Assembly: GCF_012911005.2 (NCBI RefSeq)
Contig: NZ_WTVS01000061.1
Span: forward strand, 1-33,135
Origin: Aromatoleum toluolicum
Lineage (GTDB): Bacteria; Pseudomonadota; Gammaproteobacteria; Burkholderiales; Rhodocyclaceae
Length of the DNA stretch: 33,135 nucleotides
Direction: 5' to 3'
The notes beneath the pieces were generated by a model that was given only the letters and a program-made list of their open reading frames with translations, was not told the origin of the DNA and did not search any database. Of the stretch, positions 11,087-33,113 are shown piece after piece (the stretch's first letter is position 1; the number at the start of each line of letters is the position of its first letter). A program made the translations under genes and the position numbers.

Positions 11087-11146
11087 ACTGAATGGTAGAA
11101 TGCTGCATTGCGCAAAATATCGCAAGTAGCCATCGGAAACGGCGAA

Positions 11147-11176
11147 TTGCGGGTTCCACCTATTTCTAAAGATATA
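11147..11176 (+). promoter_or_regulatory. Candidate sigma-70 promoter for fabI
   Basis: TTGCGG (11147-11152) and GATATA (11171-11176) are separated by 18 bases, in an AT-richer stretch about 60 bases before the fabI start. The match is approximate, and the -35 overlaps the third copy of the ATTGCG motif. Confidence 0.35.
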
Positions 11177-11236
11177 AGCGCGGCAGCACACTGCTGCGTC
11201 GCACCATTTTCATTCCAGTTTTCCAAGGATTTACCC

Positions 11237-12016
11237 ATGAAGTCGCTCGTCAATCTCGAAGGCAAGGTCGGCCTGATCACCGGCATCGCCAACGAAAAGT
11301 CCATTTCCACCGGCGTCGCCGAAGCGTGTGCGGAGGCAGGTGCGAAGCTCATCATCACGTACCAGAACGACAAGACACGCGCCTTCATCGAACCCGTCGT
11401 CAATCGCCTCGGCGTCGAAGACGTGTATCTCCTGGACGTGACGCGCCCCGAGACCCTCGCCGACGTGCAGGAGAAGATCGCCGCGCGCCACGGCAAGCTC
11501 GACTTCGCGATCCACAGCATGGCCTTCGCCAAGCGCGACGACCTGCACGGCCGCGTGGTCGACACCTCGCCGGACGGCTTTGCGATGGCGATGGACGTTT
11601 CGACGCATTCATTCGTGCGCCTCGCCAAGATGGTCGAGCCGCTGCTGGAGCGCGCCGGCGGCGGATCGCTGGTCACGATGACCTACCTCGGCAGCGAAAA
11701 GGTGATCCCCAACTACGGCGTGATGGGCCTGTGCAAGGCCGCGCTGGAAGCTGCGACCCGCTACATGGCGTTCGAACTCGGCGGCAAGAACATCCGCGTG
11801 AACGCCGTCTCCCCCGGCCCGCTGATGACGCGTGCCGCATCCGGTATCGCCGGCTTCGACGGCCTGATGGCGACCGCGGTCGAGCGCTCGCCGATGCACG
11901 CCCTCGTCACGCCGGAGGACATCGGCGCGCTGACGGCCTTCCTCGTCTCCGACGCCGGGCGGCTGGTCACCGGCGGGGTCCATTTCGTGGACGCCGGCTA
12001 CAACATCATGGCCTGA
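11237..12016 (+). CDS. fabI: Enoyl-[acyl-carrier-protein] reductase FabI
   Basis: This 259-residue SDR-fold enzyme carries out the last reduction of each cycle of type II fatty-acid synthesis, using NADH or NADPH. The nucleotide-binding segment is LITGIANEKSISTGVA, the modified glycine motif of FabI. The HSMAFA motif follows, and the catalytic tyrosine and lysine are in NYGVMGLCK (Tyr-x6-Lys), preceded by TYLGSEKV. The C terminus FVDAGYNIMA is typical. The chosen ATG at 11237 gives the standard FabI N terminus; a longer in-frame start at 11108 would add 43 residues of intergenic character. A kinase-like gene follows after 14 bases. Confidence 0.95.
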   Translation: MKSLVNLEGKVGLITGIANEKSISTGVAEACAEAGAKLIITYQNDKTRAFIEPVVNRLGVEDVYLLDVTRPETLADVQEKIAARHGKLDFAIHSMAFAKRDDLHGRVVDTSPDGFAMAMDVSTHSFVRLAKMVEPLLERAGGGSLVTMTYLGSEKVIPNYGVMGLCKAALEAATRYMAFELGGKNIRVNAVSPGPLMTRAASGIAGFDGLMATAVERSPMHALVTPEDIGALTAFLVSDAGRLVTGGVHFVDAGYNIMA

Positions 12017-22242: not shown

Positions 22243-22418
22243 TCGCCATTTGCGGCGAACACGCGATTGTTGAGCTGGAACTCACCAAGGACACGGCGCC
22301 TGGCTACAAGGCCGGCTTACTCGATGAACTGACGAAGCTGGAGGTGTTCAACTACGCCCGTTACCGGTTGACGCTGAGCGCTACGCAAGCCTGGAATGAC
22401 GCCGGCCGCCCACAATGA
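22224..22418 (+). pseudogene. Decayed coding remnant with no start codon
   Basis: A frame different from that of the preceding gene stays open from just after a stop at 22221-22223 to a TGA at 22416-22418. It reads as natural protein: LIAICGEHAIVELELTKD, then LDELTKLEVFNYARYRLTL, then SATQAWNDAGRPQ. No ATG or GTG occurs early in the frame. Its end resembles the C terminus of the upstream gene (the SAQAW and SATQAW motifs and a following RP). This is best explained as the tail of a related gene that lost its front part by deletion, or as a frameshifted extension of the upstream gene. Confidence 0.5.
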
Positions 22419-22669
22419 GCGCGTAGTGGCGTCATCCGCTCTTCGACTACCGGGGGTAATTGTCTTCGAGGGGCTCGCGCGTCTGAACGAAGAGAACGTA
22501 GGTGTGCCGACGAACCCGCCAACTTCTCCCACAAGCTCTGCCGGCGAACTGCAGTGAGAGGCGGTCGATAAGATGCAGGGAGCCGGCGGGCAGGTGCGTG
22601 GCTGAGGGGACACGAGGATGCGCCTCACAATGGGGCTGCGCTCGGAAAGGCAAGGCTCCTCGACCAGCC
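22419..22669. other. Non-coding or degraded stretch downstream of the Fe-S oxidoreductase gene
   Basis: No supported gene is seen in these 251 bases. Short open stretches exist on both strands but lack starts and family resemblance. The position between a truncated coding remnant and the end of a catabolic operon would suit an old recombination boundary. Confidence 0.4.
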
Positions 22670-24643
22670 TCAGACCGTTTCCGCACGTGCCGGCAGCGAC
22701 TCTGCCACGAGCTCCGCGACATCGAATACCCGCCTCTCCTCCCCATGTTTGGAGGCGCTGGACGTAAGCATCAGCAGGCAGAACGAACACGAGGTCGCGA
22801 CCTTCGCGGCGCCAGTGTCGACAGCTTCCTGCATGCGCACGTCGTTGATGCGCGCAGTACCACCTTTCCCGCCCCAGTAGTTGCCGCCACCCGCGCCGCA
22901 GCAGAAGCTGTCCTTGCGGTTGCGCGGCATTTCGATGAGCTGGGCGACGGCGCCGAGGGCACGCCGGGGTTCGCTGAGGATGTCGTTGTGGCGGCCGAGG
23001 TAGCAGGGGTCGTGGAAGGTGATCTTCTCGGCGTCGTTGCGCACGACCTTCAGGCGGCCGTCCGTGATCAGCTGGTCGATCAGCACGGAGTGCGGGATGG
23101 TCTGCCAGTCGGCGCCGAGTTCGGGGTAGTAGCGGTCGAAGCTGTTGAAGCAGTGCGCGCACATCGTGATCACTTTCTGGATCTTGCGCTCGCGGAAGTC
23201 TTCGATGTTGGCCTGGGCGATTTCGACGAACTGCATCTCGTCGCCGGCCATCTTGGCCGGGTCGCCGGTGCAGCGCGACTCTGCGAGGATGCCGTAGGAC
23301 ACTCCGGCGGTCTCCAGGATGCGCACCATCGCGCGGGCGACTTCCTGGGCCCGCGGCTCGAAGGCGACGGAGCATCCGATCCAGAGCAGGTATTCGGTCT
23401 TGCCGGCCTCGAAGAAGGGCACATCCAGCCCCTTGCGCCAGTCGTCCGGGTTGGCCGCAGTGCCGACAAAGGGGTGCCCCCGCGATTCGAGGTTGCGGTT
23501 CGCGAGCGCGAGCGTGTCCGGCATTTCCGAGCGGTCCATGACGAAATGGCGGCGGAACTCGAGGATGGTCTCCGCGGGGCTGTTGCTCGCGGGACACTCT
23601 TCCACGCAGGCGGCGCAGGTGGTGCAGTCGAACACCGCCTGCAGACCGATCTCGTCGATCAGCGCGACGTCGTCGAGGCGCCCATTCTCAAGATACGTGG
23701 CGCACGTGGTCATGACCTTCTTCGGCGACAGCGCCTTGCCCGTCTGCGCAGCGGGGCACACTTCCTGGCAGCGGCCGCACCACAGGCAAGCGGAAAAATC
23801 GAGCAGCTTCTTGCGGTCTAGATCGGCGAGCTTGGCAGCACCGAAGGAAATTTCCTCGCCCTCGGGCGGATCGGCGTCGAAGTCGATCGGGGCGAGCGTG
23901 ATGCCGGAGCGCCGCCGCGCGAGCGCCGCGTTCGCGGGCGCAAGCAGCATGTGCGACAGGGGGGTGTGCGCGATCAGGCCGATGAAGGCGACGCCCAGCA
24001 AGGCGTGCAGCCACCACGCGAGATGCGTGGCGACGGCGTGCGGGCCGACGCCGATCTCGCGTAGCCCGCTTGCGAGCACAAGCCCGAGGAATTCACCGCG
24101 GCTCGCGTACTGCGGGTTGGCAAGCCGGAAGGCCTCCGCTGCGAAACCCGCGAGGATAGTGACGAGGAACAGCAGCTCCATCGCGACGAAGCCGCGCCGA
24201 AAGCCTCCGGTGTTGAGCCGTTCGATGCACATCAGGCGCCGCACGACGAAGAACGCGACGCCCGCGAACATCAGGATGCCCGCGAGTTCGCGCCCCAGTT
24301 CCATCACGAGGAAGCCGAAACGCCCCTCATACACGGGCACGCCGACGAAGCTTAGGGCGAAGCCGGCGTGGCCAAGGATTGCCACGACTGCGCCGCCGAA
24401 CATCACGCCGTGCGCGAGGCCCGCGACCGGGCGTTTCTTCAGCCGCGAGGTGAGCAGGCCGCGCGAGGCGAAGGCCCGCAGGTTGAAGCGCTCGCGCCAG
24501 CCGGCCGGCGCAGCGGCACCGGGCAGCGCCCTGCCCTCCGCGATTAGCGCCGCGCGCCGCTTAAGCCCGAGGAGCACGCTCGCCAGCGCGGCGGCCAGCA
24601 GGAGCGCCAGGATCGTGTAATCGAGCGCGGAGATCGCGGACAT
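22670..24643 (-). CDS. Membrane-bound Fe-S oxidoreductase, ETF:(mena)quinone type
   Basis: This 657-residue protein combines an N-terminal membrane domain of about five helices with histidines suitable for haem b (NarI-like), a bis-[4Fe-4S] ferredoxin domain (CLWCGRCQEVCP near residue 284 and CTTCAACVEECP near 343), and a C-terminal heterodisulfide-reductase-type region with CCG motifs (HDPCYLGRHND near 544, CCGAGGG near 581). This layout is that of the membrane Fe-S oxidoreductases found next to electron-transfer flavoprotein genes, thought to carry electrons from acyl-CoA dehydrogenases through ETF to menaquinone or ubiquinone. It is last in the leftward operon etfA, DUF35, thiolase-like and this gene, which supports that role. 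A GlcF-like role is less likely because of the membrane domain. Confidence 0.87.
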   Translation of the reverse strand: MSAISALDYTILALLLAAALASVLLGLKRRAALIAEGRALPGAAAPAGWRERFNLRAFASRGLLTSRLKKRPVAGLAHGVMFGGAVVAILGHAGFALSFVGVPVYEGRFGFLVMELGRELAGILMFAGVAFFVVRRLMCIERLNTGGFRRGFVAMELLFLVTILAGFAAEAFRLANPQYASRGEFLGLVLASGLREIGVGPHAVATHLAWWLHALLGVAFIGLIAHTPLSHMLLAPANAALARRRSGITLAPIDFDADPPEGEEISFGAAKLADLDRKKLLDFSACLWCGRCQEVCPAAQTGKALSPKKVMTTCATYLENGRLDDVALIDEIGLQAVFDCTTCAACVEECPASNSPAETILEFRRHFVMDRSEMPDTLALANRNLESRGHPFVGTAANPDDWRKGLDVPFFEAGKTEYLLWIGCSVAFEPRAQEVARAMVRILETAGVSYGILAESRCTGDPAKMAGDEMQFVEIAQANIEDFRERKIQKVITMCAHCFNSFDRYYPELGADWQTIPHSVLIDQLITDGRLKVVRNDAEKITFHDPCYLGRHNDILSEPRRALGAVAQLIEMPRNRKDSFCCGAGGGNYWGGKGGTARINDVRMQEAVDTGAAKVATSCSFCLLMLTSSASKHGEERRVFDVAELVAESLPARAETV

Positions 24644-24667
24644 GGTCGGGGCCCCGGTGAGTTTGGG

Positions 24668-25861
24668 TCAGCGCTTGAGGATTGCGGCGGTCGCGTTGCC
24701 GCCCAGGCCGTTGGTCTGGGCGAGCCCGACCTTCGCGTCCGGCACCTGCCGCCCGCCGGCCTGGCCGCGCAGCTGCCAGGTGAGTTCGGCGATCTGGAAG
24801 ACGCCCATCGCCGTCGTCGCCTCGCCGAAGGACACGAATCCGCCCGAGGGATTGATCGGCATTCTGCCGGTGGGGGCAGTCTCCCCCGCCTCCAGCAGGC
24901 GCTCGGCCTCGCCGGGTTCGCACAGCCCCCATTCCTCGGGGAAGGCGAGCTCGTAGTAGCAGGTGTTGTCCTGCAGCTCGGTGAAGCTGATGTCGCGGGG
25001 GCCGATGCCGGAGCGCTCGAAGGCCTTCATGACCGCGGACTTCGCCTCGGTGTGGAAGCTCGGGCCGGAGGGAACCGGGCCGGCGAGGCTGCGCGGCAGG
25101 GCGTCGTCGAAGCCAATGGTGGCGACGGCGCTTGTTGCGACCGTGATCGGTTTCGATGTGAAGCGGCGCGCCATCTCCTTCGAGCAGATCACCGCCGCGG
25201 CGGCGCCGTTCGACACCGGGCAGATCTCGAACAGGCGCAGCGGATTGCTGACGTAGGGCGACGCGAGCACCTCGTCGAGCGACACGGCCTTCTGGAAGCG
25301 CGCGAAGGGATTGCTCTCGGAGCACTTGCGGGCCTTCACGGTGACCTTGGCCATCTGTTCCTCGGTCGTGCCGAAATCGAACATGCGGCGGCGCGCGAGG
25401 GTCGCCCAGAAGGCGGGGCCGGGCATGCCGACGCAGCGCTGACGCAGATATTCGGGATCATTCGCGTCCTCGACGCCGGAGGTCTGGATCATGCCCTTCG
25501 GCATCACCTCGCCGCCGACCACCAGCACGACGTCGTGGATGCCACCGGCGACCAGCGAATAGCCGATGTTGAACGCATTGCCCCCGGCAGCGCAGCCGGC
25601 CGAGAGGTTGTACACGGGGATGCCGGTGCAGCCGAGGTCCTCGACGATGTCGTTGCCGTTGAGGCCCCAGCCCTTGCCGCCGGAAAAGCGCGAACTCGCC
25701 GCCGAAACGGCCTGCACCTGCTTCCACGACACGCCGGCGTCCTTCATCGCCATGTCGACCGCATGGCGGCACAGCTCGGTGACGGACTTCTCACCCACGA
25801 TCGCATCGCCGGTCTTGCCGAAACGATGCATCCCTACTCCCAGAACGACGACTTCCTGCAT
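24668..25861 (-). CDS. Thiolase-superfamily protein, SCPx/Ltp type, probable aldolase or altered thiolase
   Basis: This 397-residue protein has the thiolase fold and aligns with SCP2-thiolase/lipid-transfer proteins, for example in ELTWQLRGQAGGRQVP and MPINPSGG. The nucleophile-position cysteine C90 is kept in SAGCAAGGNAF. Other canonical residues are not: the histidine of the HDCF motif is Q297 (ELQDNTCYYEL), the GHP motif is GEA (346-348), and the C-terminal QHN before GLGG is AQT. Tyrosines Y302 and Y303 lie where the lost histidine motif was. Ltp2, the steroid side-chain aldolase, is a thiolase homologue repurposed in this way and needs a DUF35 partner; a DUF35 gene is directly upstream. 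The start at 25861 has a GGGGGAAAC site. Confidence 0.85.
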   Translation of the reverse strand: MQEVVVLGVGMHRFGKTGDAIVGEKSVTELCRHAVDMAMKDAGVSWKQVQAVSAASSRFSGGKGWGLNGNDIVEDLGCTGIPVYNLSAGCAAGGNAFNIGYSLVAGGIHDVVLVVGGEVMPKGMIQTSGVEDANDPEYLRQRCVGMPGPAFWATLARRRMFDFGTTEEQMAKVTVKARKCSESNPFARFQKAVSLDEVLASPYVSNPLRLFEICPVSNGAAAAVICSKEMARRFTSKPITVATSAVATIGFDDALPRSLAGPVPSGPSFHTEAKSAVMKAFERSGIGPRDISFTELQDNTCYYELAFPEEWGLCEPGEAERLLEAGETAPTGRMPINPSGGFVSFGEATTAMGVFQIAELTWQLRGQAGGRQVPDAKVGLAQTNGLGGNATAAILKR

Positions 25862-25875
25862 GTTTCCCCCGGGGC

Positions 25876-26325
25876 TCAGAGCAGTTTGAATTTCCACGAC
25901 GTGAAGGCCTTGCCGTCCTCGTGATGGATGGGTTCGATCACGAGCCGGACGCGCGCGCCGACCCGCATGACCTCGACGGGATCGACCATCTGCCCGACCA
26001 CCCGCAGGCCGCTGTCGAGATCCACGACCCCGATCGCGTACGGTACAAAGGGCTTGTCATAGCGGTGGGGCAGCGGCGGCGGGAAGTCCGCGACCGAATA
26101 GCTCCACAACCTGCCCTCGCCCCCGAAGGTGCAGGGCACGATCTTCGATTCCTCGCAGGCCGGATTGCGGCATGTGGCCACCCGCGGGAAGTAGGGTGTG
26201 TTGCAGCAGGTGCAGCGGGCGCCATGCAGGCGCGCGCCCTCCTCTTCCGAAAACAGCCCCGGGACGCAGGGTTCGCGCAGCGCGGCCGTGTTGGCAAGCT
26301 CATTCATCGTGTCGCGCTCCGTCAT
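25876..26325 (-). CDS. DUF35/OB-fold protein with zinc ribbon, partner of the thiolase-like protein
   Basis: This is a protein of about 149 residues with an N-terminal rubredoxin-like zinc ribbon (C38, C41, C52 and C57 in the CxxC and CxxxxC arrangement) and a C-terminal OB-fold (DUF35), seen in [14 protein letters not shown] and the [12 protein letters not shown] strand. Such proteins bind thiolase-superfamily enzymes; in the steroid pathway the same domain is fused to ChsH2 and is required by the Ltp2 aldolase. Here it is a separate gene 14 bases upstream of the thiolase-like gene. Its ATG at 26325 overlaps the etfA stop (ATGA); an in-frame ATG at 26307 with a GGAG site is also possible. 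Confidence 0.88.
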
Positions 26326-27278
26326 GCCTTCGCGGCCTTGATGAGTTCGGGCAGGATCTCCAGGCAGTCGCCCACGACCCCGTAATGCGCGTAGCGGAAG
26401 ATCGAGGCGTCGGCATCCTTGTTGATCGCGACGATGGTCTTCGCCGCGGAGCAGCCGGCCATGTGCTGGCTGGCGCCGGAGATGCCGACGGCGACATACA
26501 GCGCCGGGCGCGTGATCTTGCCTGTGAGGCCGACCTGGTGCGACGAGTCGATCCAGCCGTCATCGACGATGGCGCGCGAACCGCCCCACATGCCGCCGAG
26601 GGCTGCCGCCATATCCTTTACCATCTCGAAGTTCTCCTTGCTGCCGAGACCGCGACCGCCCGAGACGATGATCTGGGCATCCTCGAGGCGCGCTTCGGCA
26701 ACCTGCGGCGCGGAGATCACTTCGAAGCGCTCGGCGACGGCGCCCGTATTGAGCGCGACCGTGTACTGCACGACGGCCGTGGGTACGGCGGCAGGCGCTG
26801 CGACGATCGAGGTGGTCGTCACCGACAGCACTGCGACCGGCGCCGTCAGCGCGTAGACCGCATGCGTATCGCCACCGAAGGCCGTCGCCGTCACGTGCAG
26901 GCCGCTGCCGGCCGGCTCCGCGTCGAACACGTTGGCGACCACCGGCACACCCAGTCGGCCCGCGAGGCGCGCCGCGATGACGCGGGATTCAGCGCCCTGA
27001 TTGAACAGGACGATGCGCGGTGCGGTGCTGCTGCAGTAGGCGGCGAGGGTTGCGACCAGCGCATCCGGTCCGGACGGCGACGCAGCGACTCCCTCGATGC
27101 GGTCGAGGCGATTCACGCCGGAGCGGGCGGCCGCTTCGGTTGCCGCGCCCGCGGCGCCGCCGAGCACCAGCCAGCGCAATTCCACGCCGGTCGAGCCCGC
27201 CAGTTTGCGTGCGAGCGTCAGCGCCTCTTCGGTACCGCCGTCGATGGCATCACCCCAGGAACACAGCACAACGGCCAT
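26322..27278 (-). CDS. etfA: Electron transfer flavoprotein alpha subunit
   Basis: This is a 318-residue ETF alpha subunit, which binds FAD and passes electrons from acyl-CoA dehydrogenases to a membrane quinone reductase. The C-terminal FAD domain is typical: [12 protein letters not shown] (206-217), QVGLTGK (248-254), [11 protein letters not shown] (265-275), AINKD (284-288) and the closing [15 protein letters not shown]. The start at 27278 has an AAGGAG site 8 bases upstream. It is the first gene of the leftward operon. No etfB is visible beside it, which is unusual because the two subunits normally form a heterodimer and are encoded together. Confidence 0.93.
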
Positions 27279-27700
27279 AGCGAGTACTCCTTGTTCAGTG
27301 CGACGAATTGATCGAGCGGGCATCCGGCTGAGGCGGCAATTTCTCCGTGCGACCGCTTTGCGCCGAATTTACGACGCAGCCCGGATCCCGATTCCTGAAT
27401 CCAGTCTAATTGCCCCGCTTTTGTCGCACTGCGCCGCTTCGAATCAGAAGGGGACTTTGCCAATTCATTTCCGGCCAGCCCGAAACCCTTGTTCCGCAAG
27501 GCATTGCGCGACCGAAGAATGGGGCGTGGCGGGATGGCCGGCGCGGACATGGCCTTATCTGACATTCCTGCGGCCACTTCGGAACTGCCGCCGGACAACA
27601 CCGCCGGAAATCGGAATCTAGAATCGGCTCAACGATTCGCGGCATAGGGCAATTGCCGATTTGCCGGCCGTCTTGATTAATTCCTGATGCGGGGACAGAC
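27279..27700. promoter_or_regulatory. 422-base divergent control region of the acyl-CoA cluster
   Basis: This non-coding region drives etfA leftward and the acyl-CoA dehydrogenase 1 gene rightward. It is AT-richer than the flanking genes. It contains the inverted repeat GATTC-CT-GAATC (27390-27401), a direct GAATC-TA-GAATC pair near 27615-27626, and the perfect palindrome GGCAATTGCC (27648-27657), which lies about 43 bases before the dehydrogenase start and could overlap its promoter. The dehydrogenase has a GGGGA ribosome site. No regulator gene is in the window; a TetR-type repressor would be typical of such clusters, but that is a guess. Confidence 0.55.
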
Positions 27701-28882
27701 ATGGATTTTGAGTTTTCCGAAAAAGAATGCGAATTCCTGCGTGAAGTCGATCAATTTCTGAAGGAAAACCATGACCCGAAAGTCATGGACGTCACCCGCG
27801 AAAACATGGCGCAGGTGTGTGATACGCCGGAGCGCCGCGCCTTCATGAAGAAAGTGGCCAAAAAAGGCTGGCTCGGCATCACCTGGCCGAAGGAATATGG
27901 CGGGCAGGAAGGCGAAGGCTTTTTCGAATACCTGCTGAATGAAAAGCTCTCTTCAGTGGGTGCGCCGCAGATCGGCAAGGGCGTCGGCATCATCGGCAAG
28001 ACGCTGATCAACGTCGGCTCGGAAAAGCTGAAACGCGAATTCCTGCCGCAGATCCTCGACGCGAAGATCGAATTCGCCGTCGGTTATTCGGAACCCTCCG
28101 CCGGCTCCGACGCGGCGGCGATGCGCCTGAAGGCCGAGCGCAAGGGCGACGGCTGGCTGCTCAACGGCCAGAAGGTGTTCACCACCTCCGCGCACTTTGC
28201 CGACTGGTACTGGGTTGGCGCGCGCACCGATCCGGACGCCCCCAAGCACCACGGCATCAGCCTCTTCCTCGTGCGCATGGACGACCCGGGCCTCACCATC
28301 CACCCGATGTACACGATGGGCAACGAGCGCACCAATGCAGTGTTCTTCGACAACGTGTTCGTGCATGACGACTACCGTGTCGGCGAGCTCAACAAGGGCT
28401 TCCAGTACATCGCCGAGGCGCTCGACATCGAACGCTTCAGCATGTTCACGTTCGCGCCGATCCGGGGGCGCATGGAAGTGCTGGCCGACTACGTGAAGAC
28501 GGCGAAGCGCGACGGCAAGCCGCTCAAGGACGACGCGGTGGTGCGTCACAAGCTCGCCGAGCTGGCGACCGAGTGCGAGGTTGCGCGGGTGCTCGGCGTG
28601 AAGTTCGTCGATGCCGCGATCAACAGCAACAAGACGCCGACCGTCGAGGCCTCCCAATACAAACTGTACGCGACCGAGCTGTCGCGGCGCCTCGCCGATG
28701 CGACGATGGACATCGTCGGCCCCGGCGGGCAGCTCGCGCTACACACCGAGGACGCGCCCCTCAAGGGCCGCGGGGAGAGCTGCTACACCTACACGGTGAT
28801 CGACACCATCGGCGGCGGCTCGTCGCAGGTGCAGCGCAACATCATCGCCAAGCGCAAGCTCGACCTGCCGAAGAACTTCTGA
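27701..28882 (+). CDS. Acyl-CoA dehydrogenase, catalytic-type subunit of a probable heteromer
   Basis: This is a 393-residue acyl-CoA dehydrogenase. It keeps the FAD/substrate motif VGYSEPSAGSDAAAM (near residues 127-141), the catalytic-glutamate position E244 in EALDIERFSMF, and the C-terminal GGGSSQVQRNIIAKRKLDLP. It lacks the usual RxQFGxPIxxFQ segment, which reads DGKPLKDDAVVRHKLAEL instead. The second dehydrogenase gene of this operon has the opposite set of motifs, so the two probably form an alpha2-beta2 enzyme like ChsE1-ChsE2, oxidising an alpha-branched acyl-CoA. It is first in the rightward operon and is followed after 13 bases by the racemase-like gene. Confidence 0.9.
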   Translation: MDFEFSEKECEFLREVDQFLKENHDPKVMDVTRENMAQVCDTPERRAFMKKVAKKGWLGITWPKEYGGQEGEGFFEYLLNEKLSSVGAPQIGKGVGIIGKTLINVGSEKLKREFLPQILDAKIEFAVGYSEPSAGSDAAAMRLKAERKGDGWLLNGQKVFTTSAHFADWYWVGARTDPDAPKHHGISLFLVRMDDPGLTIHPMYTMGNERTNAVFFDNVFVHDDYRVGELNKGFQYIAEALDIERFSMFTFAPIRGRMEVLADYVKTAKRDGKPLKDDAVVRHKLAELATECEVARVLGVKFVDAAINSNKTPTVEASQYKLYATELSRRLADATMDIVGPGGQLALHTEDAPLKGRGESCYTYTVIDTIGGGSSQVQRNIIAKRKLDLPKNF

Positions 28883-28895
28883 CGGAACGGGCGCG

Positions 28896-30056
28896 ATGAA
28901 CCTCCTCGACGGTTACACCGTTCTCGATTTGGCCAGCGTCGGCCCGGCGGCGCGCGCCTCGCGCATCCTTGCGGACTTCGGCATGCGCATCATCAAGGTC
29001 GCGCCGGTCGCGGCCAAGGGCGCGAAGCAGGTCGATCCCGTCTTCCATGCGTACGGCGCCGGGCGCGGCACGCGCAAGATCCGCCTCGACCTCAAGTCCG
29101 ACGCCGGACGCGACACCCTGCTGCGTCTGGCCGAGCAGGCGGACGTGGTGATCGAAAGCTACCGTCCCGGCGTCGCGGCGCGGCTCGGCGTGGGTTATGC
29201 CGACATCGCCGCGCACAATCCGAAGATCATCTACTGCTCGACCAGCGGCTACGGCCAGGACGGCCCCTGCGCGCAGTGGGTCGGGCACGACATCAATTAC
29301 CTGGCGATGTCCGGTTTCCTCGCCTGCAGCGGGCGCGACGGCGAAGGCCGCCCTGCCCTGCCTGGCGCGACGCTCGCCGACGGCGCGGGCGGCGGCATGC
29401 ACGCGGCACAGTCCATCCTCGCGGCGCTGCTGCGCCGGGAGCGCACCGGCGAAGGCGCCTGCCTCGACGTGGCGATCACCGACGGCGTGCTGAACCTGAT
29501 GTCGCTGTACCTCGACCAGTACCTCGCGACCGGCGAAGGCACTGACCCCGGCTCGGGCGTGCTGACGGGCAAGTACGCCTGGTACGGCGTGTATGCGACG
29601 GGCGACGGGCGGCACATCGCGGTGGGCGCGATCGAAGGCCACTTCTTCCGCAACCTGTGCCGCCTGCTCGAACTCGAAGCCTTCGCCGACCACCAGTACG
29701 ACGAGGCGCAGCAGGACGCGATGCGCGCAGCCTTCGCGGCGCGCTTCCTCACCCGCAGCCGCGACGAATGGGTCGCGCTGCTGGCCGGGGCCGACACCTG
29801 CGTCGCGCCGGTGCTCGCGATTCCCGAAGTGGCCGCGCACCCGCAGTTCCGCGAGCGCAAGGCCTTCATGGCGGCCGAGCATCCGCGCCGCGGCGCCTTC
29901 GAACAGCTCGCGCCGGTGCTCGCGGGCGGCGAGCGCAAGCAGCCGGTCCACCACGTCGCAGCACCCGGCCATACCGACACCGACGCGATTCTCGCCGAAG
30001 CGGGCTTCCCCGCCGGCCAGATCGCCGAACTGCGCGCAGCGGGGTGCATCGAATGA
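28896..30056 (+). CDS. Alpha-methylacyl-CoA racemase-like protein (CaiB/BaiF superfamily)
   Basis: This 386-residue family III CoA-transferase-fold protein has racemase hallmarks: VGHDINYLAMSG with H131, ATLADGAGGG with D162, and AVGAIEGHFF with E247. These match in spacing and context the catalytic His, Asp and Glu of the mycobacterial racemase MCR (126, 156, 241). Alpha-methylacyl-CoA racemases convert (2R)- to (2S)-methyl-branched acyl-CoA so that stereospecific dehydrogenases can act, as in isoprenoid and sterol side-chain degradation. A CoA-transferase role cannot be excluded because the fold is shared and the same Asp can form the anhydride. The stop overlaps the next start (ATGA), indicating coupled translation. 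Confidence 0.85.
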   Translation: MNLLDGYTVLDLASVGPAARASRILADFGMRIIKVAPVAAKGAKQVDPVFHAYGAGRGTRKIRLDLKSDAGRDTLLRLAEQADVVIESYRPGVAARLGVGYADIAAHNPKIIYCSTSGYGQDGPCAQWVGHDINYLAMSGFLACSGRDGEGRPALPGATLADGAGGGMHAAQSILAALLRRERTGEGACLDVAITDGVLNLMSLYLDQYLATGEGTDPGSGVLTGKYAWYGVYATGDGRHIAVGAIEGHFFRNLCRLLELEAFADHQYDEAQQDAMRAAFAARFLTRSRDEWVALLAGADTCVAPVLAIPEVAAHPQFRERKAFMAAEHPRRGAFEQLAPVLAGGERKQPVHHVAAPGHTDTDAILAEAGFPAGQIAELRAAGCIE

Positions 30057-30598
30057 GTGCACGCGATCCGCAAGCCAGCCGCAACGCCACGGACCTGCCC
30101 GACGAGGCGCAGCGCATGATCGACACGCCGCTCTACGAAGAGCCCGGCGAGTTCCCGATCGAGATGGGCTACGTATACAACACCTGCGCGGCCGTGCAGA
30201 ACGGCAACCCGATCTTCTGGGATCCGGCCGTCGCCGAGGCCGTCACCGGCGGCCCGATCGCGCCGCCGACGATGATGTCGGTGTGGTTCCGCCCGCATTA
30301 CTGGGCGCCGGGGGCGACTGGCGAGCGCAAGGCGCTGCAGACGCATTTCGACCTCAAGCAGATCCTCGATTTGCCCGAGGCGGTCGTCGCCAGCAACGAA
30401 GCCGTGTTCGGCGAACCCGTCCGCCCCGGCGATCGCCTCACGACGCGCCAGATCGTGCGCAGCATCGGCCCCCTCAAACAGACGAAGCTGGGCATCGGGC
30501 GATTCTGGACAATCGACGTCGAAACCACCAACCAGCATGGCGAATGGGTCGGCACCGAGATCTACACCATGCTGGGCTACCGGAGGCCGGAGCAATGA
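30053..30598 (+). CDS. MaoC-fold hydratase subunit lacking catalytic residues (ChsH2-N-like)
   Basis: This 181-residue single hot-dog-domain protein of the FAS1-like dehydratase/MaoC N-terminal group carries the substrate-tunnel motif GGPIAPPTMM. At the place of the hydratase dyad (GDxNPxH) it reads QNGNPIFWD: the catalytic aspartate is replaced by N50 (or a neighbour) and the histidine by F55. In ChsH1-ChsH2, the steroid side-chain hydratase, one MaoC subunit supplies the catalytic dyad and the other does not. Here the next gene has the intact dyad, so the two probably form one enzyme. Both its start and stop overlap neighbouring genes by 4 bases. Confidence 0.85.
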   Translation: MSARDPQASRNATDLPDEAQRMIDTPLYEEPGEFPIEMGYVYNTCAAVQNGNPIFWDPAVAEAVTGGPIAPPTMMSVWFRPHYWAPGATGERKALQTHFDLKQILDLPEAVVASNEAVFGEPVRPGDRLTTRQIVRSIGPLKQTKLGIGRFWTIDVETTNQHGEWVGTEIYTMLGYRRPEQ

Positions 30599-31083
30599 GC
30601 GCGACTGAGGTGTGCGGCATCACTGCCGCCGACATCGCCGAAGGCCAGGAAATGCCCGCGCTGCGCCACCCCGTGAGCGTGACGACCATCGTGCTCGGTG
30701 CGCTGGCGAGCCGCGACTGGCGGCCGATGCACCATGACAAGGACTTCGCGGTCGAGCGCAACGGCGTGAAGAACATCTTCATCAACACGCCCAACAACGC
30801 CGCCTGGTTCGAGCGCTACATCACCGACTGGACCGGCCCGAAAGGCCGCCTCGGTCGCCTGCGCTTCGAGATGAAGAAATCCGTCTTCCCCGGCGACGAG
30901 ATGTGCTTTTCCGGGGTCGTGCGCAAGCTCGCCGCTGATGCCGCCGGATGCCACTGGGCCGACCTGGAGTTGACGATCTCCGTCGACGGCGAAGTGCGCA
31001 CAACCGGCCGCGCACGCGTCGCCATTCCCACCGACCCTGCCGACAACCCCTGGACCCGCAAGGGCGATCGCTGGCTGCCGTAA
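30595..31083 (+). CDS. MaoC-fold hydratase catalytic subunit (ChsH1-like)
   Basis: This 162-residue hot-dog-fold protein has the R-type enoyl-CoA hydratase dyad intact: ASRDWRPMHHDKDFA gives D41 and H46 in the D-x4-H spacing. The following NIFINTPNNAAWFERYITDWTGP and SVFPGDEM strands match ChsH1-type proteins. It would add water to an alpha,beta-unsaturated branched acyl-CoA together with the preceding subunit. Its ATG overlaps the previous stop (ATGA). The 56-base gap to the next gene shows no terminator. Confidence 0.87.
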   Translation: MSATEVCGITAADIAEGQEMPALRHPVSVTTIVLGALASRDWRPMHHDKDFAVERNGVKNIFINTPNNAAWFERYITDWTGPKGRLGRLRFEMKKSVFPGDEMCFSGVVRKLAADAAGCHWADLELTISVDGEVRTTGRARVAIPTDPADNPWTRKGDRWLP

Positions 31084-31139
31084 GGCACCTGCGCCATGAC
31101 CGCGACCTTTTCGCCCGCCACCCTTTCAAGAGGCTGCCA

Positions 31140-32303
31140 ATGGACCTGAAGTTCACCGACGAGCAGAACATGCTCCGCGACATGACCCGCAACCTGTGCG
31201 CCGACTTCAGCGGCACGGACGTCGTGCGCAAGATGGAAAACGACCCGATCGGCGTGCCCGCTGACCTGTGGCAGCAAATGCGCGAGACGGGCCTGCTCGG
31301 CATGGCGATCCGCGAGGAAGACGGCGGCATGGGATTGAGCATGCTCGACTGCGCGGCGATCTACGAGCAGCTCGGCCGTCACCTCGCGCCGGGGCCTTAC
31401 TTCCCCAGCACCGTCATGGTGGCCGGGGCGCTGCGTCATGCGGGCGAGGCCGCCGATCGGCGTCCGCTGCTCGGCGCGATCGCGGCCGGCGACACGGTCG
31501 CGGTGCCGGCGTGGCTGGAACCCGACGGCGGCTTCGGCCCTGCCGGGGTGCAGCTACGCGCCACGCGGAGTGGCGACGACTACATCCTCTCCGGCACCAA
31601 GCGGCACGTCCTCCACGCTGCCGCGGCGCAACAGCTCCTCGTGCTGGCGCGCACGGGCGAAGCCGCCGACGCCATCGACCTATTCCTCGTCGATACGAAG
31701 ACGCCCGGCGTCACGCTGACGCAGCAACATTCGATGGCCTCCGACACCCAGTACCGCGTCGACTTCGACGACGTCCGCGTGAGCACGGAGAACCACGTCG
31801 GCGCCGAGGGGCGCGGCTGGCAGGCGTGGGAAACCGCGATGTACGACGGCATCATCCTGCTCGCGGCGTGGGCCGCGGGCGGGGCCGAGCGCGCGCTCGA
31901 GATCACCGTCCAGTATTCGAAGGAACGCGAGCAGTTCGGCAAGCCGATCGGCGCCTTCCAGTCGCTCGCGCACTACATGGCCGACGCCAGCGCGGTGGTC
32001 GACGGCGCGAAGATGCTGGTGCTCGAAGCCGCCTGGGCGCACGCCGTGGGCAAGGACGTGAAGCGTCTCGCGGCAATGGCCAAGCTCTTCGCCTGCCGCG
32101 CCTTCCGCGAGGTCACGCACATGGCGCAACAGGTGCACGGCGGCATCGGCTTCACGCTCGACTACGACATCCAGCTCTTTTACCGCCGCGCCAAGCAGCT
32201 GCAGATGAACTGGTGGGACTCGTCCTACCTCGAGGAGCTGATCGCCGCCGACATCCTCGACCGCGACGGCGAGCGGACGATCCCCGATCCCTTCACCGTC
32301 TGA
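31140..32303 (+). CDS. Acyl-CoA dehydrogenase, non-catalytic partner subunit
   Basis: This 387-residue acyl-CoA dehydrogenase fold keeps the adenine/FAD-side motifs REQFGKPIGAFQSLAHYMAD and QQVHGGIGFTLDYD but lacks the catalytic base at both known positions. The LDLER-type site reads TAMYDGIILLAAW, and the IYEGTSE-type site reads MNWWDSSY. The SEPxAGSD motif is also degenerate (AWLEPDGGFG). These gaps are complementary to acyl-CoA dehydrogenase 1 of the same operon, so it is best read as the beta subunit of a heterotetramer with shared FAD sites, as shown for mycobacterial ChsE1-ChsE2. The ATG at 31140 gives the standard start MDLKFTDEQ; the ribosome site is weak (AGAGG). Confidence 0.9.
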   Translation: MDLKFTDEQNMLRDMTRNLCADFSGTDVVRKMENDPIGVPADLWQQMRETGLLGMAIREEDGGMGLSMLDCAAIYEQLGRHLAPGPYFPSTVMVAGALRHAGEAADRRPLLGAIAAGDTVAVPAWLEPDGGFGPAGVQLRATRSGDDYILSGTKRHVLHAAAAQQLLVLARTGEAADAIDLFLVDTKTPGVTLTQQHSMASDTQYRVDFDDVRVSTENHVGAEGRGWQAWETAMYDGIILLAAWAAGGAERALEITVQYSKEREQFGKPIGAFQSLAHYMADASAVVDGAKMLVLEAAWAHAVGKDVKRLAAMAKLFACRAFREVTHMAQQVHGGIGFTLDYDIQLFYRRAKQLQMNWWDSSYLEELIAADILDRDGERTIPDPFTV

Positions 32304-32339
32304 TCCGCCCACGGCCGACCGCCCGAACGAGGAACTCGC

Positions 32340-33113
32340 ATGGCACGCCCGAACCCGCATTACGGAATCGGCACCTTCCGCCGTCGCCTCCGCGTGAGCG
32401 CGGCGGCGGGCGAGGTGGCCGTCGAGCTGGAGGACTGCAACCACGGCTTCCGCCTGCGCCTGTGGCACGACGGCGAGCGCGTCACGACCGTCGAGGTCGA
32501 GCCGCTGCGCATCCCGTTCAACACCTGCGCCGAGGCGGTACGCCCGCTGCAGCGCGCCGTTGGCCACCGCCTGGACGAGGACGAGGCGACGCTGCGCAGC
32601 CGCCTCGTCCCTGGCGACAACTGCACGCACATGCACGACATGGCTATCCTCGCCGTCGCGCATGCCGCCGCGCACCGAGGCGAAGAACGTACGACGCGCC
32701 TCTACGACATGGCGGTGGACGACGAGCGCGACGGCATCACCCGCGCACGCGTCGCCTGCGACGGCGCGCCGGTCCACGACTGGCACATCGCCACTCCGCG
32801 TTCCCACGCCATCACCGCGCCTGCGGAACTCGCAGGCAAGCCCGTGATGCGCGGCTTCCATGCGTGGGCATCGCAAGCCTTCGACGGCATGCCGCGCGAA
32901 GCCGCCGTGGCGCTGCAGCGCGCGTATTTCGTCGCCCAGGCGCGGCGCCACAGCTTCGAACCGGTCGCAGCGCATCCGGGCATCTCCGACGGCATGCCGC
33001 AGGGCGCCTGCTACTCGTACAACACCGGCGCCGTCGAACGGGCCTTGCGTAGCGAAGGCACCGTCCGCGACTTCACGCATACGCCGGAACACCTGCTGAA
33101 GTTCCTGCCCTGA
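32340..33113 (+). CDS. DUF2889 family protein
   Basis: This is a 257-residue soluble protein matching DUF2889, a family without assigned function. Its most conserved part is the PGDNCTHMHDMAIL motif (C95, H97, H99, D100), which could bind a metal or act in catalysis. Other family-like segments are RIPFNTCAEAVRPL and the C-terminal TPEHLLKFLP. The start has a GAGGAAC site 7 bases upstream. Placement after the dehydrogenase and hydratase genes, in the same direction and with a short gap, ties it to the acyl-CoA pathway, but its reaction is unknown. Confidence 0.88.
   Translation: MARPNPHYGIGTFRRRLRVSAAAGEVAVELEDCNHGFRLRLWHDGERVTTVEVEPLRIPFNTCAEAVRPLQRAVGHRLDEDEATLRSRLVPGDNCTHMHDMAILAVAHAAAHRGEERTTRLYDMAVDDERDGITRARVACDGAPVHDWHIATPRSHAITAPAELAGKPVMRGFHAWASQAFDGMPREAAVALQRAYFVAQARRHSFEPVAAHPGISDGMPQGACYSYNTGAVERALRSEGTVRDFTHTPEHLLKFLP

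Follow-up and report, generated by a model that had tools for sequence, protein, structure and literature searches.

Contig NZ_WTVS01000061.1 of Aromatoleum toluolicum (33,135 bases; C247 in our numbering of this 6.16-Mb draft genome), the whole of which is called the window here, carries at 22,670–33,113 a catabolic module of two divergent operons that includes a thiolase-like protein, Thl1, and a stand-alone DUF35 protein. A first-pass annotation had read the module, from the letters alone, as an unfused form of the actinobacterial steroid side-chain (igr) machinery. Its gene list holds, since every named part is an open frame in place; the Fe-S gene, on the same strand as Thl1 and 24 bases away, lies outside the interval of 24668–33113 that it gave, however, and the DUF2889 gene had not been mentioned. 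The features are listed below.

22670–24643, minus strand: Fe-S protein with a 4Fe-4S dicluster domain and two CCG cysteine-rich stretches (Pfam)
24668–25897, minus strand: Thl1, thiolase-like protein, 397 residues from a probable ATG at 25861 (Pfam, NCBIfam, alignment, tree)
25876–26325, minus strand: stand-alone DUF35 protein (OB_ChsH2_C) with a CxxC...CxxxxC motif, predicted partner of Thl1 (Pfam)
26322–27323, minus strand: EtfA, probable ATG at 27278 (Pfam, NCBIfam)
27279–27700, no strand: divergent intergenic gap between the operons, ~420 bases
27701–28882, plus strand: ACAD1, acyl-CoA dehydrogenase (ACAD) subunit like Tcur3483/ChsE4, with a conserved DIERF Glu that is predicted to be catalytic (PDB matches, alignment)
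28896–30056, plus strand: α-methylacyl-CoA racemase-type family III protein with GHD and AD motifs (Pfam, PDB matches, alignment)
30053–30598, plus strand: MaoC1 (FAS1_DH region), lacks a His at the catalytic position and is predicted to be the inactive partner (Pfam, PDB match)
30595–31083, plus strand: MaoC2, predicted catalytic hydratase subunit with RDWRPMHHD (Pfam, PDB match)
31140–32303, plus strand: ACAD2, partner subunit like Tcur3481/ChsE5, FAD-binding-type motifs kept and the YEGT Glu lost (Pfam, PDB matches)
32340–33113, plus strand: DUF2889 protein, accessory (Pfam)

Scanning genome contigs for Thl1 gave 31 loci in relatives, at 71–98% identity, from Azoarcus, Aromatoleum, Thauera, Sterolibacterium, Steroidobacteraceae, Halieaceae and others. 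Two of the loci carry a deltaproteobacterial label; the genes in these relatives were called in this analysis, and several loci end at contig edges. The DUF35 frame adjoins Thl1 in all 31, which at this identity argues that the module is not a chance assembly. EtfA is present in 29 loci and the Fe-S protein in 26. ACAD1 occurs in 16, two of which have a partial copy, the racemase, MaoC1, MaoC2 and ACAD2 in 14 each, and DUF2889 in 10. The gap between the operons had been taken for a shared promoter. A divergent gap is indeed there, but a promoter scan found no sigma-70-like site in it (0 against 0.1 expected), and both operons lie on one strand in loci L046, L047 and L059.

The module is one section of a conserved cluster of ~34 kb and lies ~15 kb from AtcABC-like genes. 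Azoarcus sp. Aa7 is reported, in the available text of PMC8399759, to be an anaerobic bile-acid degrader with AtcABC homologues in its cluster. Its gene order is Fe-S protein, Thl1, DUF35 and EtfA on one side of the gap and ACAD1, racemase, MaoC1, MaoC2, ACAD2, DUF2889 and two CoA-transferases on the other, followed by an F420-type LLM protein, a SnoaL-like protein, the FAD, 2Fe-2S and molybdenum (Mo) subunits of the AtcABC-like enzyme and a CoA-transferase. Beyond these lie an old yellow enzyme (OYE)/BaiCD-like reductase, an F420H2-quinone-reductase-family protein (76% identical to the one at L052), a major facilitator superfamily (MFS) protein, an EthD protein, an amidohydrolase and an enoyl-CoA hydratase, and then a further DUF35 gene, a second thiolase-like protein (Thl2), a MenB/BadI-like hydratase, CoA-transferases, the last of which is named by homology to Thauera terpenica only, and another MFS protein. 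Four A. toluolicum contigs match Aa7 2,659–36,985, namely C247 (85–92% nucleotide identity), C62, C43 and C284 (91–93%). C247 and C62 meet end to end, as do C43 and C284; ~0.75 kb between C62 and C43 is uncovered, and three short gaps are unaligned. The window ends 22 bases past DUF2889, where two CoA-transferases III follow in Aa7 and T. terpenica, and the A. toluolicum counterpart of the first of these starts at base 3 of C62.

Linkage to and co-occurrence with AtcABC-like genes are also seen in other genomes. A xanthine-dehydrogenase-type Mo subunit is encoded near the module in L041, L042, L046, L047 and L061, and the first four of these also hold a gene of the FAD-subunit family, the L046 copy being 65% identical to that of Aa7. 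With the L041 Mo subunit as query against 24 genomes, all 20 Thl1-bearing genomes (A. toluolicum and 19 of the genomes of the 31 loci, that of the query among them) match at E ≤ 1e-150, whereas the other four give either no match (two) or one of 40% only (two). Among 29 Thauera genomes, Thl1 occurs in 5 and an AtcA-like Mo protein (70–73%) in the same 5, with one more genome showing a 38% match only; the probability of this by chance would be 8e-6 if the genomes were independent, a figure that their relatedness weakens. The distance between Thl1 and the AtcA-like gene is 15.0–15.2 kb in six genomes. In a draw of 300 genomes of the order, the Mo protein is matched at E ≤ 1e-200 in A. toluolicum only. 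The available text of PMC9980454 names GDN1, T. butanivorans NBRC 103042 and T. terpenica 58Eu as the three atcABC-bearing genomes among 26 of Thauera, adds Azoarcus and Aromatoleum as carriers of these genes, and reports steroid induction of atcA and kshA in GDN1. T. butanivorans NBRC 103042 (L049) and T. terpenica 58Eu (L038) are both among the Thl1 loci, and so are Azoarcus and Aromatoleum; the published 3 of 26 and our 5 of 29 refer to different genome sets. In a deltaproteobacterial metagenome-assembled genome (L061, 593–2332 and 9533–10927), two DUF35–Thl1 copies of ~70% identity, one of them cut short, flank an AtcA-like gene, pointing to an occurrence beyond denitrifying beta- and gammaproteobacteria.

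The two dehydrogenases and the two MaoC proteins have the signatures of heteromeric pairs, as the first-pass annotation had supposed. The best PDB matches of ACAD1 are Tcur3483 (E 9e-60) and chain A of 4x28 (E 1e-57), an entry which we take to be ChsE4–ChsE5. In the 15 of 17 rows that span these sites, ACAD1 keeps the DIERF Glu, presumably the catalytic residue, and has GGG[SA]S where homotetrameric dehydrogenases have YEGT. ACAD2 matches Tcur3481 at E 5e-40, with four acyl-CoA dehydrogenases scoring higher; it shows RxQFxKP in 15 of 15 rows, HGGxG in 14 of 15 (one gap) and WWD at the place of YEGT in 14 of 15 (the missing row is cut off). These losses are complementary in the manner of ChsE4–ChsE5 and fit a predicted heteromeric pair. 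MaoC2 matches the shorter chain (127–129 residues), presumably ChsH1, of 4w78/4wnb, the crystal structures of ChsH1–ChsH2, at E 3e-13, and RDWRPMHHD is found in all 15 rows. MaoC1 matches the longer chain (178–187 residues) weakly, at E 9e-5 (the chain labels of 4w78 and 4wnb run opposite ways), and in all 15 rows it has NxN and lacks the catalytic His, one row having a His elsewhere in the segment. The pair is therefore predicted to combine a catalytic subunit with an inert one. The racemase assignment also stands: MCR/AMACR (1x74) is matched at E 2e-60, compared with 1e-40 for the best CoA-transferase, and GHD and AD, presumably the active-site His and Asp, are present in 15 of 15 rows. As in MCR/AMACR, then, the GHD motif and the Asp of the racemase pair are present; unlike a full-length likeness, the match spans residues 4–328 of 386.

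The Fe-S protein had been proposed to reduce quinone. Its dicluster and CCG domains, with cysteine motifs mostly kept across 27 rows, make it a probable electron-transfer flavoprotein (ETF):quinone oxidoreductase, which we assume by analogy to the EMO/EtfD/DgcB type, and together with EtfA it would be the likely electron path to quinone. There is no etfB among the Pfam-scanned frames of the window. Locus L047 has an ETF-domain gene upstream of EtfA, separated from it by a single CoxG-family gene, and the same three gene families stand ahead of EtfA in L050 and L053.

Thl1 has an unusual active site, the columns of which, numbered from the ATG, read C90, Q297, N299 and E347, compared with C/H/C/H in SCP2-thiolase, C/H/A/H in BbsB, G/Y/H/Y in Ltp2 and G/Y/C/Q in Sal. 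Relative to the SCP2 and BbsB thiolases, the Cys nucleophile is thus kept, while the histidines of HDxF and GHP are both absent, replaced by Gln and Glu. Across 32 rows (the 31 relatives and the window, with the misread frame of L047 and the partial L063 and L061 scored as misses), all but L047 and L063 have SAGCAAG (30 rows), all but L047 have QDN (31) and all but L047 and L061 have GEATTAMG (30). The CxxC...CxxxxC motif of the DUF35 neighbor is present in 30 of 32 rows. That DUF35 is encoded by its own gene, as the first-pass annotation emphasized, is correct but not unusual, as BbsA, PhlB and others are known stand-alone subunits. In this respect Thl1 and its partner resemble benzoylsuccinyl-CoA thiolase, BbsAB, which also pairs a stand-alone DUF35 with a Cys-retaining thiolase subunit of highly similar fold; BbsB, however, has the HDAF and GHP histidines where Thl1 has QDNT and GEA. 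For Sal and Ltp2, the available text of PMC12329534 describes Tyr and Cys as catalytic residues.

The description of Thl1 as Ltp-like did not hold up with respect to Ltp2. With PRK07855 (cut-off 469) Thl1 scores 141 bits, compared with 685 for the Ltp2 of the same genome, and it has neither the Tyr nor the Gly of Sal and Ltp2. In a 29-row tree the window clade falls inside a supported group (99/97) of 13 members, all with Glu for the GHP histidine, and Sal, Ltp2 and Thl2 form a separate group (100/99). Forcing the window clade together with the aldolases is rejected in the approximately unbiased (AU) test (p 0.001), whereas forcing the whole Glu group there is not (p 0.10). A Foldseek search with the Thl1 AlphaFold model (mean pLDDT 84.9) ranks SCP2-thiolase first, followed by a Pyrococcus thiolase and BbsB, with Ltp2 30th and Sal 49th. 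The best NCBIfam model is PRK06059, "lipid-transfer protein" (NF004715), at 393 bits under a cut-off of 424 that is passed by proteins of Nonomuraea (689), genome G414 (491) and Sphingopyxis sp. FD7 (460). Members of this family share the supported clade with Thl1 and have Cys and Glu at the same positions, but Thl1 scores below the cut-off and has Gln and Asn where the actinobacterial member has Tyr and Leu at two active-site columns. As PRK06059 is probably the Ltp3 family, an aldolase within the Thl1 clade is conceivable. Ltp3–Ltp4 is an aldol-lyase acting on branched sterol side chains according to the available part of a review. In Thl1 the Cys and Glu could function in acid–base catalysis or could pair up in the manner of a thiolase.

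Twelve Thiolase_C_1 proteins are encoded in the A. toluolicum genome, and the tree includes 10 of them, all but C224 and the C234 copy at 83 kb. They were considered as parts of the same system and set aside: of the 10, only a distant paralogue on C234 is of the Glu type. No match to PF02551 was found in this genome, and a scan of viral contigs yielded no relative. On plasmid pSFD01 of Sphingopyxis sp. FD7 (L068 13453–16209), a run of four genes (MaoC, hypothetical, DUF35 and Glu-type thiolase), with the active site C/A/N/E, lies near a Tn3 transposase.

The igr role itself is already filled in this genome. Contig C261 carries an ACAD pair, a ChsH1-like MaoC protein, a fused MaoC–zinc ribbon–DUF35 protein and a thiolase-like protein with YDHF, whose match to TcLtp2 has an E value of 2e-164. 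A Sal-like protein is encoded on contig C228. As the true Ltp2 operon with its fused MaoC–DUF35 sits on C261, orthology of the window module to igr was rejected, and the module must be additional. The likeness to igr/ChsE1E2–ChsH1H2–Ltp2 (ORF40–44 of C. testosteroni) nevertheless extends to an ACAD pair, a MaoC pair, DUF35 and a C–C cleaving thiolase-like protein in a set without a hydroxyacyl-CoA dehydrogenase. The differences are that the DUF35 of the window is its own gene and not fused to the MaoC α subunit, that Thl1 lies outside the Ltp2 clade with C/Q/N/E in place of G/Y/H/Y, and that a racemase, EtfA and the Fe-S protein are added while a true igr set coexists in the genome. Gene content of the igr type alone, then, need not mean side-chain degradation. 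Twelve genomes were searched, and 11 gave any match. The nine Thl1-bearing isolate genomes examined all have an Ltp2 homologue (~50% in two Halieaceae, 87–98% in the other seven) as well as a further match of 40–44% that we take as Thl2, the residues of which were read in Aa7 and A. toluolicum only.

These observations suggest a role in the 2,3-seco pathway of anaerobic steroid degradation (AtcABC; Sterolibacterium, Steroidobacter, Thauera, Azoarcus Aa7), to which the module is tied by linkage to an AtcABC-like molybdoenzyme in the same genomes. In the available text of PMC6678751, with which those of PMC6208644 and PMC8399759 agree on the pathway, the seco-acid is proposed to undergo conversion to the CoA ester, desaturation, hydration and retro-aldol cleavage to acetyl-CoA and a 2,5-seco-3,4-dinor compound, and ACAD inhibitors impair that seco-acid step (PMC6678751). 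The same text describes the A-ring hydrolase as unidentified and names no candidate for B-ring cleavage in Sterolibacterium, and the consulted portions of all three papers call the enzymes between ring-A cleavage and HIP unassigned. We consider it probable that the module carries out the dehydrogenation, hydration and C–C cleavage of a 2,3-seco-steroid acyl-CoA, most likely releasing acetyl-CoA from 2,3-seco-androstanoyl-CoA, or otherwise acting at a later B-ring step. AtcABC and a hydrolysis would open ring A, and the resulting seco-acid would be converted to its CoA ester. ACAD1/ACAD2 would desaturate this ester, with the electrons passing to EtfA (and an EtfB encoded elsewhere), the Fe-S protein and quinone, and MaoC1/MaoC2 would hydrate the double bond to a tertiary β-hydroxyacyl-CoA. 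Thl1 and its DUF35 partner would then cleave this intermediate into a short acyl-CoA and a ketone. By our own chemical reasoning C5 is tertiary after hydration, and it therefore cannot be oxidized to a ketone and aldol cleavage is required. No 3-hydroxyacyl-CoA dehydrogenase is present in the module, as the first-pass annotation had pointed out; the only short-chain dehydrogenase/reductase (SDR) among the 24 Pfam-scanned frames of the window is far off at 11108–12013. T. terpenica has an SDR gene (L124 643–1464) ~1.1 kb past its Fe-S gene and oriented alike, with one called frame between; a gene of this type is not seen beside the module in the window or in the stretch of Aa7 examined.

The retro-aldol step of the first-pass annotation is still, as a putative reaction, the leading reading and is now tied to a pathway for which that chemistry has been proposed (PMC6678751, PMC6208644). 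Its steroid source for the substrate likewise gains from the context, while the terpenoid or alicyclic alternatives that it allowed are disfavored by the AtcABC-like linkage, and its α-methyl-branched substrate, which follows from the racemase only, does not fit the published one. For denitrifying bacteria, which break down sterols, bile acids and androgens in anoxic sludge and sediment, the module offers concrete candidate enzymes for anaerobic steroid steps that the literature, as far as consulted, calls unassigned. The set is compact and conserved, includes electron-transfer proteins of its own and has an active site of an unusual type. The module is not named in the consulted portions of the literature, and the original cluster papers may already annotate parts of it.

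Several points weigh against this assignment. The racemase has no obvious role where the α carbon is unbranched. Thl1 keeps a Cys and lacks the known aldolase residues, and Thl2 of the same cluster, with its Gly and YDCF, has the better aldolase signature, so the step might be that of Thl2. The ACAD, MaoC and racemase genes fall within the examined DNA in only 14 of the 31 loci, the others ending early or having these genes elsewhere. The name AtcABC is given on family, subunit set, location and the published genome list and must be considered presumptive. The carriers among the Halieaceae are aerobes; the oxygenase-independent pathway has been reported under oxic conditions in Sterolibacterium, in the part of the literature consulted. 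Finally, the neighborhood of AtcABC in Sterolibacterium denitrificans, as given in the legend of a review, lists EtfB and several unknown proteins and no ACAD, MaoC or thiolase.

The strongest alternative leaves the module in the same pathway and moves it to a later point. After opening of ring B, an α-methyl acyl-CoA comprising C9–C10(C19)–C1 would be racemized and desaturated, and after hydration at C9 its cleavage would yield propionyl-CoA together with the HIP C9 ketone, which amounts to the igr reaction moved from C17 to C9. An AMACR-signature racemase in the operon, at 14 of 31 loci, suits such a substrate, as does the ChsH1/ChsH2-like hydratase pair; HIP needs a C9 ketone, and the mechanism of B-ring cleavage is called unknown in the available text of PMC8399759 and PMC6678751. 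Such a CoA ester is not named in the literature as far as consulted, however, and the route requires a methyl ketone to lose C2, a step to which no recognized gene of the cluster corresponds. We regard this alternative as possible, though clearly the less probable one.

It is also conceivable, if rather doubtful, that Thl1 is a cysteine-dependent enzyme of the thiolase or PhlC kind, which might cleave the 1,5-diketone of 2,5-SDAT with CoA, and that the ACAD and MaoC pairs instead supply Thl2, acting as the retro-aldolase. The Cys kept in 30 of 32 rows, the position on the thiolase side of the tree and the Foldseek order, with its thiolases first, all speak for this, as does the place of Thl2 in the Sal/Ltp2 group; indeed, judging from its residues, Thl2 may act as aldolase in one or other of the two steps. 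Yet both thiolase histidines are lost in Thl1, its best profile is the presumed Ltp3 family of aldol-lyases, and the Glu-type rows taken together are not rejected from the aldolases. A bolder reading, to which we give a similarly low weight, is that Thl1–DUF35 represents a new catalytic type of the DUF35–thiolase family, using Cys/Glu with Gln and Asn to cleave rings A and B, and that, with the racemase and the igr-like pairs as partners, it would derive the C9 ketone of HIP from water. If true, the Thl1–DUF35 route would do anaerobically what the oxygenase KshAB starts aerobically.

An additional igr/acd system for sterol or bile-acid side chains is improbable. The best PDB matches of ACAD1, Tcur3483 and the ChsE4-type chain of 4x28, are what we take to be side-chain enzymes, and a racemase would suit C25 or C20. 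The A. toluolicum genome, however, has its true Ltp2 operon and Sal-like gene elsewhere, and the module tracks AtcA. In the 300-genome draw Ltp2 (E ≤ 1e-110) is found in three genomes, two of which are outside both the nine Thl1 matches (E ≤ 1e-60) and the AtcA-like matches. A terpene or aromatic-acid role, raised by the Thauera and Aromatoleum hosts, was disfavored by the linkage, and a terpenoid or alicyclic acid route unrelated to steroids is highly improbable even though T. terpenica 58Eu, presumably a monoterpene degrader, is mentioned in the literature with eucalyptol, as linkage ties the module to AtcABC-like genes, with tesG/tesF-like ones in addition in Aa7, and Thl1 is absent from 24 of 29 Thauera genomes.

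The remainder of the window differs in character. The 14 Pfam-scanned frames of the left 22 kb look like housekeeping genes, among them a ribosome-binding GTPase, DUF1415, an aldehyde dehydrogenase, a CorC-type transporter, an APH-family kinase, the SDR, GTP cyclohydrolase I, a phosphate permease, RlmJ, a hexapeptide protein, an ABC-F protein, a RIO kinase and others; some smaller or doubtful frames of this part lie outside the scan. The housekeeping part (RIO kinase, ABC-F) gives way to the catabolic cluster at 22244–22669, and blastn of the window against the Aa7 contig gives no match left of 22492. For DUF2889, a predicted model (mean pLDDT 72) yields MHC-like and other matches with a query-normalized TM of at most 0.26 among the 50 matches listed, which we take as meaningless, and a literature search found the family in two papers, with a single mention in each. 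On C234, at ~20.9–22.9 kb (L024 10956–12893), a distant paralogue set has DUF35, a Glu-type thiolase and DUF2889 close together, which suggests that DUF2889 is functionally tied to the Glu-type thiolase.

Other genes of the wider cluster are of interest for the same pathway. The MenB/BadI-like hydratase beside Thl2 (L128 12037–12999, Aa7 32.0–33.0 kb; A. toluolicum copy at L030) is a candidate for the hydrolysis of the ring-A 1,3-dione. The OYE-type reductase (L128 3860–5890, Aa7 23.9–25.9 kb; A. toluolicum copy likewise at L030) matches the mycofactocin OYE and BaiCD models, both under cut-off, and is a candidate for the Δ4 reduction of the 2,3-seco pathway. Within the cluster or close to it are F420-type genes, namely an LLM oxidoreductase (TIGR03619; L127 15884–16807), the F420H2 quinone reductase family gene (L128 5921–6439) and CofD (L052 6014–6988), a hint that anaerobic steroid degradation may involve F420 chemistry. 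In Aa7 the cluster is directly followed (L128 16987–19027) by tesG/tesF-like genes for a 4-hydroxy-2-oxovalerate aldolase and an acetaldehyde dehydrogenase, placing aerobic and anaerobic steroid genes side by side.

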